Source: Candidatus Desantisbacteria bacterium CG1_02_49_89
GTDB taxonomy: Bacteria > Desantisbacteria > UBA1551
NCBI GenBank assembly: GCA_001871075.1
Contig: MNUP01000025.1
Span: 1 to 5,929, forward strand
Length of the DNA stretch: 5,929 bases
Direction: 5' to 3'
Shown here: in pieces, positions 1-5,929 of the stretch
Layout: every line of letters starts with the position of its first letter
Numbering within the stretch: position 1 is the first letter of the stretch
Notes under the pieces: model-generated
The model's database searches: none
The model's input: only the letters and a program-made list of their open reading frames with translations
Told to the model about the DNA's origin: nothing
Translations under genes and position numbers: made by a program

Positions 1-300
1 CAGAACGCGCGTTATGTTTATCCCGCTCGCTTTTATAGCCGTCATTTCATTATCCGCCGAAAGCCTGCTGATGCTGAGCAGGCACGCCAGGAGCACCGCC
101 ATCGGGATGGTGAGCAGGAGCATTGACGGAAGGGAGAATATCAGCAGTTTAAAAACAGAGATCACGCCTACACCCTTATTAATCACCAGGTTGGTAAGGT
201 ATACCATCTTGCTTGCTATAAAAATGAACGTGAAAATGGCTATGCCGAAAAGAAACGGCGGCACGTATTCCCTAATAGTGTAATTTCTCAATATATTCAT
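1..300 (-). CDS. LptF/LptG family LPS export permease, N-terminal part (truncated by window edge)
   Basis: This is an inner-membrane subunit of the LptB2FG transporter, which extracts lipopolysaccharide from the inner membrane and feeds it to the Lpt bridge. Reading the minus strand from the ATG at 300-298 gives exactly 100 codons open to the window edge. An N-terminal segment of about 12 residues leads into a hydrophobic helix (about residues 13-36). A second long hydrophobic stretch (about 51-77) is followed by the family-typical motif RLSADNEMTAIKASGI (about 79-94), the region after TM2 conserved in the YjgP/YjgQ family. An in-frame stop at 330-328 leaves the ATG as the only reasonable start, although no clear Shine-Dalgarno precedes it. 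The gene diverges from the large gene at 457. LptF and LptG cannot be separated confidently from this fragment; the RLSADNE motif leans slightly to LptF. The rest of the gene lies outside the window. Confidence 0.9.
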   Translation of the reverse strand, partial: MNILRNYTIREYVPPFLFGIAIFTFIFIASKMVYLTNLVINKGVGVISVFKLLIFSLPSMLLLTIPMAVLLACLLSISRLSADNEMTAIKASGINITRVL

Positions 301-313
301 ATTTTTCGAAATT

Positions 314-350
314 TGATTACACCGATTTCAAAAAAGTGATTACACCGATT
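314..350 (-). repeat. Two direct copies of AATCGGTGTAATCA, period 23 nt
   Basis: Plus-strand positions 314-327 and 337-350 are identical 14-mers that read AATCGGTGTAATCA on the minus strand. Their starts are 23 nt apart, about two helical turns. They lie in the leader of the Lpt permease gene, with the nearer copy ending 13 nt before its ATG. The word fits a general form, AATC-NNN-GTAATC, that also occurs at 388-400, 5453-5465 and 5475-5487. Function is unknown; it could be an operator, an RNA element or a dispersed intergenic word. Confidence 0.85.
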
Positions 351-379
351 GTAAACAATGGTTATTATGGTAATAAATT

Positions 380-407
380 TTTACCTTAATCTGTGTAATC
401 ATATTAT
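380..407 (+). promoter_or_regulatory. Candidate promoter for the SprA-like gene
   Basis: TTTACC at 380-385 (4/6 to the -35 consensus) is separated by 16 nt from TATTAT at 402-407; TATACT at 405-410 is an alternative -10. The start would be near 414, about 43 nt before the ATG at 457. The -10 coincides with the opposite-strand -10 at 408-403, so the two divergent promoters would share the same bases. This is weaker than the minus-strand promoter. Confidence 0.3.
388..401 (+). repeat. Single AATCTGTGTAATCA word upstream of the SprA-like gene
   Basis: This has the same form as the words at 314-350 (AATC-NNN-GTAATC-A) but lies on the plus strand, in the sense orientation for the gene at 457. It abuts the candidate -10 at 402. 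Relative to the two minus-strand copies it is an inverted repeat, with 12 of 13 positions able to pair in a transcript. Confidence 0.7.
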
Positions 408-430
408 ACTCAGATTTGTTTTTTTTTCAA
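403..430 (-). promoter_or_regulatory. Sigma70-type promoter for the Lpt permease gene
   Basis: On the minus strand a TTGAAA (-35, 430-425; 5/6 to consensus) is followed after 16 nt by a perfect TATAAT (-10, 408-403). The predicted transcription start is near 396-397, giving a leader of roughly 97 nt before the ATG at 300. That leader contains both copies of the AATCGGTGTAATCA word. The match is good, but AT-rich intergenic DNA gives chance hits and there is no transcript evidence. Confidence 0.55.
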
Positions 431-444
431 GTAAATATGAAAAC

Positions 445-449
445 GGGGA
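445..449 (+). promoter_or_regulatory. Ribosome binding site that decides the start at 457
   Basis: GGGGA at 445-449 ends 7 nt before the ATG at 457. The in-frame ATG at 358 has no purine-rich site in front of it, lies upstream of the candidate promoter, and would add 33 residues ahead of the signal peptide. The site supports 457 but matches the Shine-Dalgarno consensus only moderately. Confidence 0.5.
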
Positions 450-456
450 TTGTTTC

Positions 457-3400
457 ATGAAATTTAAAGTGTTAATAATTTTTATCCTGTTTTTGCTGAT
501 CACTGTCCACTGTCCACTGTCCACTGTCTGTCGCGCCGCCGACACCCAGACCCCCGGCCTGGGGGACCAGATAGTCAGGGAAGTGCAGTCCCGCATAGCT
601 GCTTCCGGGAGGAAGATGTGGGAAGTGAAATACACGTGGTCTCACTACCTGGATCCCCGCATAAACAGCGATTTCGAGAACAGTTTCGCGATGTACCAGG
701 AGCTGCAGTTCCGCCTCAGCGGGAAGGTTGGTGACAGGATCACGGTGAATGTCGAATACGACGATACCCAGCAGAAGAAACAGAAAATATCGGTCATTTA
801 CACCGGAGAGGGAAGGGAAGCCACCGGGATACAGGAAGTAAACTTCGGCGACCAGGTCCTTTCGCTTCCGGGCACCGAGTTCGTCGCGTATAACAAGCAG
901 CTTTTTGGGTTGAGCGTGAAGGGCCAGTACGAGAAATTCAGGTATTATTTCGTCGGCAGTCAGACAAAAGGTTATTCGGAGACCAGGGAATTCAGGGGGA
1001 AGAGTGAGTTCAAGGTTGTGGACATAAGGGATATCTCTTACTACACGAGGAAGTATTACATACTCAGGCACATAAATCAGGGCAGGGAAAAGGTTTACAT
1101 AGACGACAGGAACGCCTCAAATAACACCGCCAACACATTCTATTTTCAGGGTTTAGACATGGTTACAAACCCGGTTTCACCTGACACAATTTCCGGTTAC
1201 TTCGACCCGGCTTTTTCCGGAGTCGACTATGTCATAGATTACGGAACAGCCGCATCCGACAGCACCGTGATATCATTTTCAAAGGGCATAGACCAGAATT
1301 TCGTCCTGCTTGTTTATGACATGGACCTTAACAATACGTTCGCCATAAAAGACGATCTCGGCACTGAGACAAGGACTTCCAGGTACGAACTGAAGAACTA
1401 CTATTACCTTGGGTACCGCAAGATCATACAGAACGACCCCAATTTCATCCTGGAGGTCTGGGATTCGGATAAGGCAAGGCATCCGGTTTACCTGTGGCCG
1501 AATACCGCTCCGGCAGGCGAATCATACACCGCGAAGATAGATTACGATTTCGGTATAATACATTTCGTGGATTCAACCGGAAGGGACGTTCGGCCGTTCG
1601 CCCCCGAAGTCTACCTGCCTTCAAACCCGGTGACGACCCGCGAGATACACGCGGAATTTAAATATTCCATACAGGCGCTGATACTGCGCCCCTACCTTGT
1701 TGAGGGAAGCGAGCGCGTGTACCTGAACGGCAGCCTTCTGAGGAAGGATTCGGATTACACGATAGACTACGATAGCGGCTGGCTTTCATTCCTGCGCGAG
1801 GAAATGATCACAGAGGACAGCGTTATCAAGGTGGACTACGAATACATGCCGTTCGGCGGCCAGTACGTGGAAACCCTTTTAGGTATGAGGGGCGAGTTGC
1901 CGCTTTCTCCGGATTTTTCCATCGGCACAACATACCTGTACAGCGGCACGCCTTCGCCCAACGAAATACCCAGCGTAAGGTCCACGCCTAAAAGCCACCA
2001 GGTAGTGGACGTTGACATGCAGCTTGACCCCAAATCGCTGATCTCAAGGATTATCCCGGGCCTGGAAAAGGTCCCGTTTTCCACAAGCATGAATTTTGAG
2101 GGCGCGTACAGCTGGAAAGACCCGAATACTTTCAAGAAGGCCATGGTGGACGACATGGAAGGCGCAAAACTGCAGGTCAGCGTGCCGATGACAGATACCA
2201 ACTCATGGAGGATCTCTTCGGCTCCAACAGGCGAATCACTCGGGCTGAGGGGACTTATAGGCGGGGGGGTGTTCAATCTCAGGGGAGCTGAAGAGGGCCA
2301 TGACCCTAACCTGACCACCCCGAAGTCCATAGTGCTGGATTATTCCCTTGCGGACAGCAACTGGGTCGCGATCTGCTACCCGATCTCAAAATATTCGCAG
2401 GACTACTCTCAGTATAACAATATTGAGTTCTGGGTCAAGGATCCCGTACCGAATGTGAAGGTCTTCTTTGAGCTGGGAATGATAAGCGAGGATGTTGACG
2501 GCAGGGGAGGTTTTGACACCGATGTCTATTCCGGTTCGGCAAAGCTGTGGAGCAAGGGCCAGCCCAAAACAGAGGATACCAAAATGGCGGACGGCAAGCT
2601 CAATCCGGATGAAGACGCCGGCTGGACGTTCTACAGTCCGGGCGGAAGCTCTGCCCAGATAGGGGCGAATAACGGCAGGCTGGACGGAGAGGACCTTGAC
2701 GGGGACGGGCAGCTCAACGCATTCAACCAGAAAATACACACGTTGGGAGGGTATTTTGCGGAATTCGATTTTTCCGGATATAAGATAGGCGAATCCGGCA
2801 GCTGGAAGCTTTACAGGATCCCGTTCTCGCGCCAGGTTTCCGGAGATACTGACTGGGCCATGGTGAAGAATATACGGATCTGGGTAAAGAACGAATCCGG
2901 CGGCGCGAAGTCCGGGTCGCTTCAGATGGACAGCCTTTCAGTGGTAGGCAGCAAGTGGACCAACGTTGCCGTGGGAGGGCTTGCCGGCATTAATACCTTT
3001 TCCGCTGAATCGAGGAACTCGGTTGACAATATCAGTGGGGACAGCCCGTCCTATTATAAAGACCCCAGGTATTACGTGCCGGATTCGTCCTACGACGAGG
3101 ATGAGGACGGCCTGAACGATTATTTCGAAGAGCTGCACCCCAACCTTGAGGAAGACCTGCGCCTGGTCGTCGCTTCCCAGATACCCAAGGAACAGTCAAT
3201 GGCGCTGGTCTACCGGTTCAGCGAGGAGTGCACGGGTTCCGTGACCCAGAAATTCACAACAGCGCTGAATTTTACCGACTACAAAAGGATGAAATTCTGG
3301 CTTTTCGTGACTTCCGGCAGTTCCGGCGGCACGTTCTTCATTAGGTTCGGCATGGACGACAACAACTACTACCAGCAGAATTTCGCCCTGTCTTCGGAAA

Positions 3401-5337
3401 AAGACTGGGAGATCAAATCAGTGGAGCTGGGTGACGTTACAACGCTGGTTAGGTCCGCGACAATGACCGTGACAGAGCCGCTGGACATACTGTATAATAT
3501 CAAACAGATAACGCTGGGTGTGTATGACACCAACACCTTCGGCAGGAAAAAGGAGATCTGGATAAACGAGCTGTATCTGGACGAGTCCGGGATAAAGGAG
3601 GGTTACGCCCTAAAGGCCGGGCTTAACGTGAATATTGACAACGGATTCGTGGGGTTGGGCGCAAGTTACAGGAAGCTCTCACACACGTTTGAAACCCTGG
3701 GCGTTGCGTCAGCCGCGGAGGACAACGAATCTTTCGGAGGCAGCTGGAGCGTTCTGCTATCAAGGCTTATACCGTCCGGCTGGGGGATCAGCCTGCCTTA
3801 TTCAGGCGCATGGTCACAGACGCGCACCCAGCTTGACCCCAATACCGCAAAGGATGTCCCGCGGTACAGGCTGGGCCTCAGGAATGTGATCGCGCAGAGC
3901 CATTTTCTTAATTTCGGGCAGACATATTTGCCTTCGATCACCGGCAGTTATACCCACGCGAAGATAGACAGCGATTTTAAAGGTTCTGAGGCAAAAGAAA
4001 TACAGCAGAGCTATTCGGCAAGCATGATTTACAGCTATGCCTTCCCGCGCTGGTTGTGGTACGCGCTTTCCGTTAAACCTTCCTATTCCTATTCGAGTTC
4101 TTTGCGCGAGGTAAGCATTGGCCCGGCTTTTGTGGATACGAACAATACATGCGATCATGCAAGCGATTTCCTTGTTTCAATGGGTTTTCAGCCTGTCGCG
4201 CAGGTAAACATCATACCGCAGTATAAGCTGCGAAACACGGGCCAGCAGGCAAGCGTCAACGCGCCACTGGGGGATATGAGGCCTTTGAGCAGGAACCAGA
4301 ACCTCGGTATTTCAACTTCCACGACGTATTTTAAGGGTGTAAGCCCGTCCGCGTCTCTCAGCGAGGTCATCGACGAGAATTATTTCATAAGCGTCACGGA
4401 TACTAAAAAGAACGCAAGCGGCAGCGCGACCGTTGATTTTAACGCAAGCGTTTCACCCAGAGAATGGTTCAGCGTAATGAAATTCGTTAATTTCTATTAC
4501 AGCTTCCGGATGAACGCGAACGTTTCGTATGAAAGCCTTGATAAAACAATAGAGCCCGGGGATATAAACATGGACATCTGGCAGGCCCTTGTGAACCTGA
4601 GAGACACGTTTACGTTCACCCTGATGCGGAAGGCGTCATCCAACCAGAAAAACCACACGCTCAGCGCTAATTTTTACCTGTGGGACCCGCTCAGCGCGAG
4701 CGCGAATATGTCTTTCGGCACGGACGAAAGCCAGAACCAGGGTTCTTTCAACACTGTCAATAACCTGGGTTACGGCGGCAGCGCCCGCCTGGACATTAAC
4801 CAGGCGTTCCCGGAACTGAAGAAATCCATGGAATCTTCGAACCTTATGGGCAGTTTCAACCACAGGATCTCGGAAACCCTGGGTTCGTCAAAAACCTCCA
4901 CCATGACACCCAACTTCAACTGGCAGGTAAGGTGGACCTCAGCCGTAAACCAGAATTATTCATTTAACTGGAACATGGAGACCACCCAGACCGGCGCATA
5001 CACCAGGTTCACAAACACCATGGCTCCTTCTGTGAGGACGGATTATACCGCCGATTTCCCGCTTGTCCTCGCTATACCGTTTTTCAAGGAATGGAAGCTT
5101 GCGAACCGCTTTGACCTCAACAATACCACGAGCCATGAATTCAGGAGCGTGGAAGAAGACGTATTAAAGCTGGAATCGACAAATAAGTTTTCGACCACCA
5201 CCGGGCTTTCGTATAACGCGGCTGAGAACCTCCGCCTTACGTTCGGCCACACTTTTATCTGGTACGCGAACGCCCAGGTCCCGACCCAGGATTATATTTC
5301 GCACAGCATAGCGTTCCGCGGCGAGATCCGCTTTTAG
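457..5337 (+). CDS. sprA: SprA/Sov-like giant outer-membrane beta-barrel protein (type IX translocon homolog)
   Basis: The product has 1626 residues from ATG 457. The start is chosen because it gives a signal peptide: a lysine at 2 and 4, a hydrophobic core at about 5-17, and likely cleavage after A27. In Bacteroidota, SprA/Sov is the outer-membrane pore through which type IX substrates leave. The N-terminal region resembles SprA: GDRITVNVEYD (92-102), YTGEGRE (115-121), a SLPG segment, LFG (149-151) and SQTKG (168-172), matching the family pattern of EYTG, VSLPL, LFGIK and SQ-K-G in the same order. Later come a VYLNG plus DYTIDYDSG module (421-441), DDMEGA (565-570), EFWVKDP (657-663) and ISED (676-679), also SprA-like. 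Two jelly-roll-like modules (about 624-831 and 913-1045) carry acidic DGD/DED loops. From about 1050 the sequence is alternating, aromatic-rich barrel strands ending in a C-terminal Phe. It is shorter than Bacteroidota SprA (roughly 2,300-2,500 residues). Secretion function is inferred; another large porin-like role is possible. No PorV or other type IX genes are in view. Confidence 0.75.
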   Translation: MKFKVLIIFILFLLITVHCPLSTVCRAADTQTPGLGDQIVREVQSRIAASGRKMWEVKYTWSHYLDPRINSDFENSFAMYQELQFRLSGKVGDRITVNVEYDDTQQKKQKISVIYTGEGREATGIQEVNFGDQVLSLPGTEFVAYNKQLFGLSVKGQYEKFRYYFVGSQTKGYSETREFRGKSEFKVVDIRDISYYTRKYYILRHINQGREKVYIDDRNASNNTANTFYFQGLDMVTNPVSPDTISGYFDPAFSGVDYVIDYGTAASDSTVISFSKGIDQNFVLLVYDMDLNNTFAIKDDLGTETRTSRYELKNYYYLGYRKIIQNDPNFILEVWDSDKARHPVYLWPNTAPAGESYTAKIDYDFGIIHFVDSTGRDVRPFAPEVYLPSNPVTTREIHAEFKYSIQALILRPYLVEGSERVYLNGSLLRKDSDYTIDYDSGWLSFLREEMITEDSVIKVDYEYMPFGGQYVETLLGMRGELPLSPDFSIGTTYLYSGTPSPNEIPSVRSTPKSHQVVDVDMQLDPKSLISRIIPGLEKVPFSTSMNFEGAYSWKDPNTFKKAMVDDMEGAKLQVSVPMTDTNSWRISSAPTGESLGLRGLIGGGVFNLRGAEEGHDPNLTTPKSIVLDYSLADSNWVAICYPISKYSQDYSQYNNIEFWVKDPVPNVKVFFELGMISEDVDGRGGFDTDVYSGSAKLWSKGQPKTEDTKMADGKLNPDEDAGWTFYSPGGSSAQIGANNGRLDGEDLDGDGQLNAFNQKIHTLGGYFAEFDFSGYKIGESGSWKLYRIPFSRQVSGDTDWAMVKNIRIWVKNESGGAKSGSLQMDSLSVVGSKWTNVAVGGLAGINTFSAESRNSVDNISGDSPSYYKDPRYYVPDSSYDEDEDGLNDYFEELHPNLEEDLRLVVASQIPKEQSMALVYRFSEECTGSVTQKFTTALNFTDYKRMKFWLFVTSGSSGGTFFIRFGMDDNNYYQQNFALSSEKDWEIKSVELGDVTTLVRSATMTVTEPLDILYNIKQITLGVYDTNTFGRKKEIWINELYLDESGIKEGYALKAGLNVNIDNGFVGLGASYRKLSHTFETLGVASAAEDNESFGGSWSVLLSRLIPSGWGISLPYSGAWSQTRTQLDPNTAKDVPRYRLGLRNVIAQSHFLNFGQTYLPSITGSYTHAKIDSDFKGSEAKEIQQSYSASMIYSYAFPRWLWYALSVKPSYSYSSSLREVSIGPAFVDTNNTCDHASDFLVSMGFQPVAQVNIIPQYKLRNTGQQASVNAPLGDMRPLSRNQNLGISTSTTYFKGVSPSASLSEVIDENYFISVTDTKKNASGSATVDFNASVSPREWFSVMKFVNFYYSFRMNANVSYESLDKTIEPGDINMDIWQALVNLRDTFTFTLMRKASSNQKNHTLSANFYLWDPLSASANMSFGTDESQNQGSFNTVNNLGYGGSARLDINQAFPELKKSMESSNLMGSFNHRISETLGSSKTSTMTPNFNWQVRWTSAVNQNYSFNWNMETTQTGAYTRFTNTMAPSVRTDYTADFPLVLAIPFFKEWKLANRFDLNNTTSHEFRSVEEDVLKLESTNKFSTTTGLSYNAAENLRLTFGHTFIWYANAQVPTQDYISHSIAFRGEIRF
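501..528 (+). repeat. Four perfect tandem copies of the heptamer CACTGTC inside the signal-peptide codons
   Basis: Units are at 501-507, 508-514, 515-521 and 522-528, all identical. They encode the end of the hydrophobic core and the region before the signal-peptidase site (about residues 16-24, TVHCPLSTV). Three units make seven codons, so the encoded peptide itself begins to repeat (TV at 16-17 and 23-24). Because 7 is not a multiple of 3, gain or loss of a single unit would shift the reading frame. Confidence 0.95.
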
Positions 5338-5342
5338 AGGCA

Positions 5343-5370
5343 GTCATGAGTCATGTGTCATGAGTCATGT
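5343..5370 (+). repeat. Four tandem heptamers GTCATG(A/T)
   Basis: Units are GTCATGA, GTCATGT, GTCATGA and GTCATGT, beginning 6 nt after the stop codon of the large gene. The last base alternates A/T/A/T, so the array is also two perfect 14-mers. It sits in non-coding DNA. No function is assignable. Confidence 0.9.
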
Positions 5371-5383
5371 GTTTAGCTCGTAA

Positions 5384-5410
5384 CATCGTGCATCGTTCAT
5401 CGTGCATCGT
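5384..5410 (+). repeat. Four tandem heptamers CATCGT(G/T)
   Basis: Units are CATCGTG, CATCGTT, CATCGTG and a final CATCGT followed by A. The layout is the same as the preceding array (7 nt, four copies, variable last base) but the sequence is unrelated. It lies 13 nt downstream of that array, in non-coding DNA. Confidence 0.9.
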
Positions 5411-5418
5411 AAATAATT

Positions 5419-5442
5419 CTCTGTGTCTCCGTGCCTCCGTGG
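5419..5442 (+). repeat. Three degenerate tandem octamers CTC(C/T)GTGN
   Basis: Units are CTCTGTGT, CTCCGTGC and CTCCGTGG. From memory, very similar CTCTGTGTCTCCGTG-type words recur between genes in many environmental genomes, so this is probably a dispersed intergenic element. That recollection was not checked. Confidence 0.7.
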
Positions 5443-5449
5443 TTAATTT

Positions 5450-5455
5450 TATAAT
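5450..5455 (+). promoter_or_regulatory. Possible -10 element for the isomerase gene
   Basis: A perfect TATAAT lies 43 nt before the GTG start at 5499 and overlaps the first AATCACCGTAATC copy. No recognisable -35 is found 16-18 nt upstream and there is no extended -10 TG. The gene may instead be reached by read-through, since no convincing terminator follows the large gene. Confidence 0.25.
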
Positions 5456-5487
5456 CACCGTAATCGCAGTTAAAAATCACCGTAATC
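5453..5487 (+). repeat. Two direct copies of AATCACCGTAATC, period 22 nt
   Basis: Copies are at 5453-5465 and 5475-5487, identical over 13 nt. The second copy directly abuts the Shine-Dalgarno AGGA of the isomerase gene and ends 11 nt before its GTG. Copy number, spacing, orientation and position relative to the start codon mirror the pair ahead of the Lpt permease gene; only the central three bases differ (ACC against GGT). Confidence 0.85.
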
Positions 5488-5498: not shown

Positions 5499-5929
5499 GT
5501 GAAGTTCGGGATATGCAACGAAATTTTCAAGGGCTGGGAATGGGCCAGGGTGGCTGGATACGTTTCATCGCTGGGTTACGCCGGTATTGAGCTTGCCCCG
5601 TTTATTTTTGCCGGATCGGTTGAACAGGTAAGCGCCGGCAAAAGGAAAGAGATCGCGGATATTGCCGGTGCGAACGGCCTTGAAATAACCGGCCTTCACT
5701 GGCTGCTGGCGTCCCCGAAGGGCTTGAGCCTGAGTTCTCCGGATAGGTCGATCCGTGAAAGATCAACTGAATACCTTAAAGCCCTGGCGCGCTTCTGCGG
5801 CGATGTAGGCGGGAAAGTAATGGTGTTCGGCTCTCCGAAGGCAAGGGATATCCCTCCTTCATCCGGTTTTGGCGAAACATACGAACGCGTTAAGGATTGT
5901 TTCTTTTCAGTCCTTCCGGTCCTGAAAGA
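5499..5929 (+). CDS. Sugar phosphate isomerase/epimerase (xylose isomerase-like TIM barrel), N-terminal half
   Basis: 143 codons are open to the window edge; the family is usually about 270-290 residues, so about half is present. These are cytoplasmic, metal-dependent enzymes that isomerise or epimerise sugars or sugar derivatives. The product starts with a short first strand (KFGICNEIF, 2-10). It then has GYAGIELAPF (26-35), with Glu31 after the second strand, a third strand with LEITGLHWLLASPKG (61-75, His67), and KVMVFGSPKARD (106-117). The GLHWLL-SPKGL and GGKVMVFGSPK blocks are typical of one well-conserved subgroup of the AP_endonuc_2/xylose-isomerase-like superfamily. The metal-binding Glu, Asp and His residues of the second half lie beyond the window, so activity and substrate cannot be judged. 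The start is GTG with AGGA 7 nt upstream. It follows the large gene on the same strand after 161 nt of repeats, so operon membership is doubtful. Confidence 0.88.
   Translation, partial: MKFGICNEIFKGWEWARVAGYVSSLGYAGIELAPFIFAGSVEQVSAGKRKEIADIAGANGLEITGLHWLLASPKGLSLSSPDRSIRERSTEYLKALARFCGDVGGKVMVFGSPKARDIPPSSGFGETYERVKDCFFSVLPVLK

Follow-up and report, generated by a model that had tools for sequence, protein, structure and literature searches.

The type IX secretion system (T9SS) has been described as restricted to Bacteroidetes (PMC4793230) and as not occurring beyond the FCB phyla (PMC11285876), and its channel SprA has been called FCB-specific (PMC12611786). SprA is a single-chain barrel of 36 strands with a cap and a lateral opening. 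In Bacteroidota one PorV serves the type A cargo, while type B cargo often has a shuttle gene just downstream (PMC12618676), and the energy for releasing the carrier-cargo complex is thought to come from a motor that includes GldM (PMC10994853). Desantisbacteria are not among the FCB phyla named in PMC11285876, and our search of the T9SS literature for Desantisbacteria, Omnitrophota and Elusimicrobiota, with coverage that took in few subscription papers, found no report of SprA in these three groups. We describe here an SprA homolog of reduced size from Desantisbacteria, which we interpret as a T9SS-type translocon belonging to a variant system that has one pore and many dedicated carriers.

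A compact SprA homolog

The window, by which we mean the whole stretch of DNA analysed, is an entire contig (C60, 5929 b) of the source genome G000, a fragmented assembly of 2.48 Mb in 150 contigs that is 93.5% complete. The other Desantisbacteria genome in our collection, G001, is Candidatus Desantisbacteria bacterium CG1_02_38_46 (87% complete). Most of the window is filled by one open frame, 358-5337, with its first ATG at 358. The ATG at 457, which gives 1626 residues, is the likely start; it is favoured because a hydrophobic signal-like segment begins there and because it coincides with the start of the G001 ortholog. The features are as follows.

1 to 300, reverse strand: LptF/LptG LPS-export permease, N-terminal part, pointing away from sprA (PF03739, E 3.8e-25)
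301 to 456, no strand: intergenic stretch from which lptF/G and sprA diverge
457 to 5337, forward strand: putative SprA/Sov-type outer-membrane translocon protein, 1626 aa (TIGR04189, G001 ortholog, 6h3i profile match, hhalign)
457 to 540, forward strand: signal-peptide-like N-terminus (MKFKVLIIFILFLLITVHCPLSTVCRA), by eye from the sequence
670 to 1071, forward strand: conserved N-terminal block, profile 126-258, with QELQFRLSGKVG...LSLPGTEF...QLFG...GSQTKG (E 4.2e-12)
1696 to 2229, forward strand: conserved block, profile 604-789, with RVYLNGSLLRKDSDYTIDYDSG ... DDMEGA ... SWRISSAP (E 6.3e-20)
2308 to 2496, forward strand: conserved block, profile 882-950, with EFWVKDP and ISED (E 2e-6)
2665 to 3390, forward strand: conserved block, profile 1082-1330 (E 5.6e-8)
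3496 to 3828, forward strand: conserved block, profile 1401-1516 (E 3.6e-8)
3829 to 5334, forward strand: C-terminal third, presumed to be the remainder of the barrel, last residue Phe
5502 to 5929, forward strand: xylose-isomerase-like TIM-barrel protein, partial (PF01261, E 1.7e-11)

The sequence-only reading had proposed an SprA/Sov-like protein from motifs in the expected order, and all of these (YTGEGRE, LSLPGTEF, QLFG, GSQTKG, DDMEGA, EFWVKDP and ISED) are present. Against NCBIfam TIGR04189 (Sov/SprA) the protein scored 171.9 bits (E 1.3e-50) over five stretches; a six-frame search of G000 found these five blocks collinear with the model, at the only SprA locus in the genome, and 14 control genomes gave no match. 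With 200 bits as the curated cut-off for an equivalog, the score falls short, so by the NCBI rule the protein is not an SprA equivalog; one relative (L094) exceeds the cut-off with 210 bits. The Pfam SprA_N profile, proposed as a check, did not match; a Pfam search of the protein returned no SprA family at E <= 1. The sole row at that level, the DNAJC11 barrel (E 0.12), was rejected as a chance match, and a phage tail tube model (NF052337; residues 430-463, E 7e-4; L153, E 2e-6) was set aside as probably due to a small beta fold in common, or to chance.

Profile comparisons bore the homology out. A phmmer search of PDB with the window protein alone gave nothing related, but a profile built from the two Desantisbacteria proteins matched Flavobacterium johnsoniae SprA (6h3i/6h3j) at E 2e-18, and one from ten compact sequences matched 6h3i at E 1.7e-35. 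In an hhalign comparison of the compact clade with a long-SprA set of three sequences, headed by the GldM-positive G203, the probability was 100 (E 4.1e-67, 996 columns), and the aligned region takes in roughly the first two thirds of the protein. Members of the compact clade can be aligned with one another through the C-terminal third as far as the final residue; this third lies beyond the hhalign match to long SprA. AlphaFold models of two 1200-residue halves, from alignments of only three rows each, had pLDDT of 27 and 30 and were discarded. An uncalibrated strand count from amphipathicity, at thresholds of 0.45-0.55, gave 31-41 strands for the compact set and 37-47 for the long set.

Reduced size had been claimed against roughly 2,300-2,500 residues in Bacteroidota, and it stands: F. 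johnsoniae SprA has 2403. The difference from long SprA is spread across the N-terminus and many loops, with no single lost domain. In G001 sprA is split across two contigs with an exact 344-base overlap; joined, it encodes 1622 residues, about 52% identical to the window protein, at the same locus. A single-sequence scan of the collection contigs found no relative, and an alignment scan found the second Desantisbacteria genome only. Compact relatives of 1581-1769 residues do occur outside the phylum in several lineages (G284, G147, G253, G238, G367 and others); they align with the window protein over about 1,430-1,500 residues, nearly full-length, at 24-31% identity, and their neighbour genes vary. 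Judged on these sequences, compact size is not peculiar to G000 and is shared with a clade of relatives from other phyla. The SprA tree places the window protein on an arm of 20 sequences that is well supported and mostly compact, apart from the long forms, and its nearest neighbours are other members of the compact clade, not Bacteroidota; the tree is midpoint-rooted and therefore carries no information on ancestry, so that it speaks neither for nor against the ancestral relative proposed from the sequence alone.

Asp/Gly-rich repeats resembling calcium sites (DVDGRGGFDTD, NPDEDAGW, EDLDGDGQLNAF, DEDEDGLNDYFEE) lie at about 2490-2720 and 3090-3150 of the window (protein 680-755 and 879-898). 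This Asp/Gly-rich central stretch is kept in the compact-clade consensus (DADGDGxLDTED, LDTEDLDGDGIL).

Cargo, carriers, motor and sortase

The C-terminal sorting domain TIGR04183 was found 15 times in G000 and four times in G001, always above cut-off. Seventeen of these 19 domains were mapped one by one, and in every case the domain stops no more than about 14 residues short of the C-terminus. Some match the CHU_C model besides the type A model TIGR04183. The cargo types include beta-propeller, lectin-like and FG-GAP proteins, with a subtilase in G001. The PorV family gave 29 match stretches in G000 and seven in G001; in G000 these yield 16 genes above cut-off, after joining two pieces of one C78 gene. 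A representative carrier matched the PorV chain of the SprA complex in PDB (6h3i_F, E 3e-13) and Pfam PorV (E 7e-15). Cargo and carrier genes are paired: 10 of the 15 sorting-domain genes in G000, and one in G001, have a PorV gene downstream on the same strand within about 100-390 b (130-390 b for the ten in G000), for which a rough chance estimate (10 of 15) is about 1e-23. The genome holds two marks of type IX membership, TIGR04183 cargo domains at protein ends and PorV-type carriers.

Co-occurrence was counted in 386 genomes drawn outward from G000. TIGR04189 matched in 153 of them, and 132 had SprA together with PorV (E <= 1e-20) and two or more sorting domains, counts that pool FCB and non-FCB genomes. 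SprA and at least two sorting domains were both present in 140 genomes, SprA only in 13, the domains only in five and neither in 228 (p 3e-82); the corresponding counts for SprA and PorV were 136, 17, 8 and 225 (p 1e-73). Among G002-G152, which the numbering suggests to be single representatives of high-level groups, two or more sorting domains were found in 55 of 60 SprA-positive and 3 of 91 SprA-negative genomes (55/5/3/88, p 2e-31). The sampled genomes are related, so all three p-values overstate independence.

Of the components that the sequence-only reading had thought worth seeking elsewhere in the genome, PorV and the type IX C-terminal domains were found, as above, and GldM and the PorU peptidase domain (C25, PF01364) were detected in neither G000 nor G001. 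The GldM model was positive in G203, G334 and G062, and C25 was present in the Bacteroidota-like G203 and G334. In the whole sample GldM matched four genomes, only two of them SprA-positive. In G062 (L123) GldM scored strongly (362 bits) and a single sorting domain was present, with no SprA match. Four SprA-positive genomes without GldM (G272, G287, G240 and G069) have 12 to 27 matches each to peptidase C25 (gingipain/PorU-type).

These results bear on the possibility that Desantisbacteria have a complete canonical T9SS, with a motor (GldL/M) and sortase (PorU) either too diverged for detection or lying in the missing part of the MAG. The incompleteness of both genomes leaves some room for this. 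Three genomes with strong SprA and C25 (G229, G089 and G358) likewise lack a GldM match, so part of the GldM absence may reflect low sensitivity of a narrow model, and the search for motor and sortase parts covered GldM and PorU/C25. However, GldM and C25 are missing from both Desantisbacteria genomes, though C25 matched in 25 of 50 genomes in the very search that missed these two, and the PorU model NF033707 matched in Desantisbacteria with the sorting-domain end alone. We therefore consider a canonical system unlikely, if still to be reckoned with.

The locus and its neighbours

Flanking Lpt and sugar-isomerase genes had been noted from the sequence alone, and model matches (PF03739 and PF01261) agree. 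The lptF/lptG gene lies divergent from sprA in the window, in G001 and in six relatives (L150, L153, L163, L164, L166 and L167). Since the arrangement recurs in relatives, the Lpt neighbour is not incidental; the pairing may reflect shared regulation of outer-membrane building. As listed (window 1-456, L012 and the same six loci), it spans distant compact-SprA lineages. Elsewhere, L165 (G143) has ruvB divergently upstream of compact sprA. In G001 sprA is flanked by two divergent LptF/G genes, beyond which lies the subtilase with a type IX sorting domain; downstream are isomerase-like genes, and further downstream a protein similar to the xylose-isomerase-like one of the window, a neighbour that is probably outside the secretion system. 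Sorting-domain genes were found near sprA in G001, G367 and G311; in G001 and G367 a sorting-domain protease lies beyond lptF/lptG.

The recurrent Lpt neighbour is what would be expected if the window protein were an outer-membrane protein that derives from SprA but serves some other purpose, such as one linked to LPS or lipid, and were not a protein translocon; an LptE-like gene downstream of sprA in G253 points the same way. Against this, SprA co-occurs tightly with sorting domains and PorV across genomes, a cargo gene adjoins the lpt-sprA locus itself in G001 and G367, and one SprA copy faces many cargo-PorV pairs. We regard such a role as improbable. Another export role had also been suggested from the sequence, and it is unsupported because sorting-domain cargo and PorV carriers share the genome. 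That the contig is foreign DNA, from MAG contamination or recent transfer from a Bacteroidota relative, could be entertained because the window is one short contig in a fragmented MAG, but it is largely refuted by the G001 ortholog in an independent genome with the same kinds of flanking genes, by closest sequences that belong to the compact clade and not to Bacteroidota, and by cargo and PorV genes on many other contigs.

Short near-tandem repeats were seen at 500-530 of the window (CACTGTCCACTGTCCACTG, within signal-peptide codons) and in the intergenic stretch at 5341-5470 (ATGAGTCATGTGTCATG, CATCGTGCATCG and CTGTGTCTCCGTGCCTCCGTGG). The CTGTGTCTCCGTG-type motif is present on several further contigs of G000.

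Proposed system and comparison with described systems

The suggestion of a compact type IX-like translocon remains the best reading. The window protein is very probably the outer-membrane translocon of a type IX-like system with one SprA, many dedicated PorV carriers and lateral exit of cargo. Cargo bearing an Ig-like C-terminal sorting domain would reach the periplasm via Sec. Inside the SprA pore, the sorting domain would bind to loops of a carrier of the PorV family, itself docked at the side opening of the pore, and the carrier-cargo complex would then exit sideways to the cell surface. Many cargo genes have their own adjacent PorV-family carrier gene, and all would share the single SprA, whereas one PorV serves all type A cargo in Bacteroidota. 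The SprA homology, its single locus, the terminal position of the sorting domains, the PorV homologs, the pairing of genes and the co-occurrence across genomes are direct results; we infer the pore function, the pairing of carriers at the protein level and the lateral exit by homology to the F. johnsoniae translocon (PMC10994853).

SprA, PorV and sorting domains co-occur in Desantisbacteria, a phylum where T9SS has not been thought to occur, and the literature label "FCB-specific" looks too narrow. A route made of SprA, PorV-family carriers and sorting domains may, as a tentative generalization for which we would not yet claim the greater probability, be common across many phyla, some of them outside FCB, without the GldLM motor and the PorU sortase. 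If so, this route would draw its energy from a different source and rely on dedicated cargo-carrier pairs, and what Bacteroidota have would be a more elaborate version. GldM is almost never recognisable alongside this triad; its true absence would turn the power supply for release into a concrete question. For structural work, a compact SprA and its dedicated carriers would also offer a smaller target.

Compared with F. johnsoniae SprA (6h3i/6h3j), the window protein has collinear homology in its N-terminal and central two thirds, and G000 too has PorV carriers and cargo with C-terminal sorting domains. The window protein differs in its shorter N-terminus and loops, 1626 residues against 2403, and in scoring below the curated cut-off; the Bacteroidota system further differs from that of Desantisbacteria, where neither genome has a detected GldM or PorU and cargo genes are paired with their own PorV-family genes. 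The carriers are homologous to the PorV shuttle (PF19572, NF033709), and a representative matches PorV of the SprA complex (6h3i_F), but they are many paralogs beside cargo genes, whereas Bacteroidota rely on one PorV for all of their type A cargo (PMC12618676). In having the shuttle gene directly downstream of its cargo, the arrangement resembles type B cargo with an adjacent PorP/SprF shuttle (PMC12618676); unlike that system, Desantisbacteria have a PorV-family shuttle, and their sorting domains fit the type A model TIGR04183. The Desantisbacteria arrangement is the type B gene logic, applied to a PorV-family carrier with type-A-model domains.
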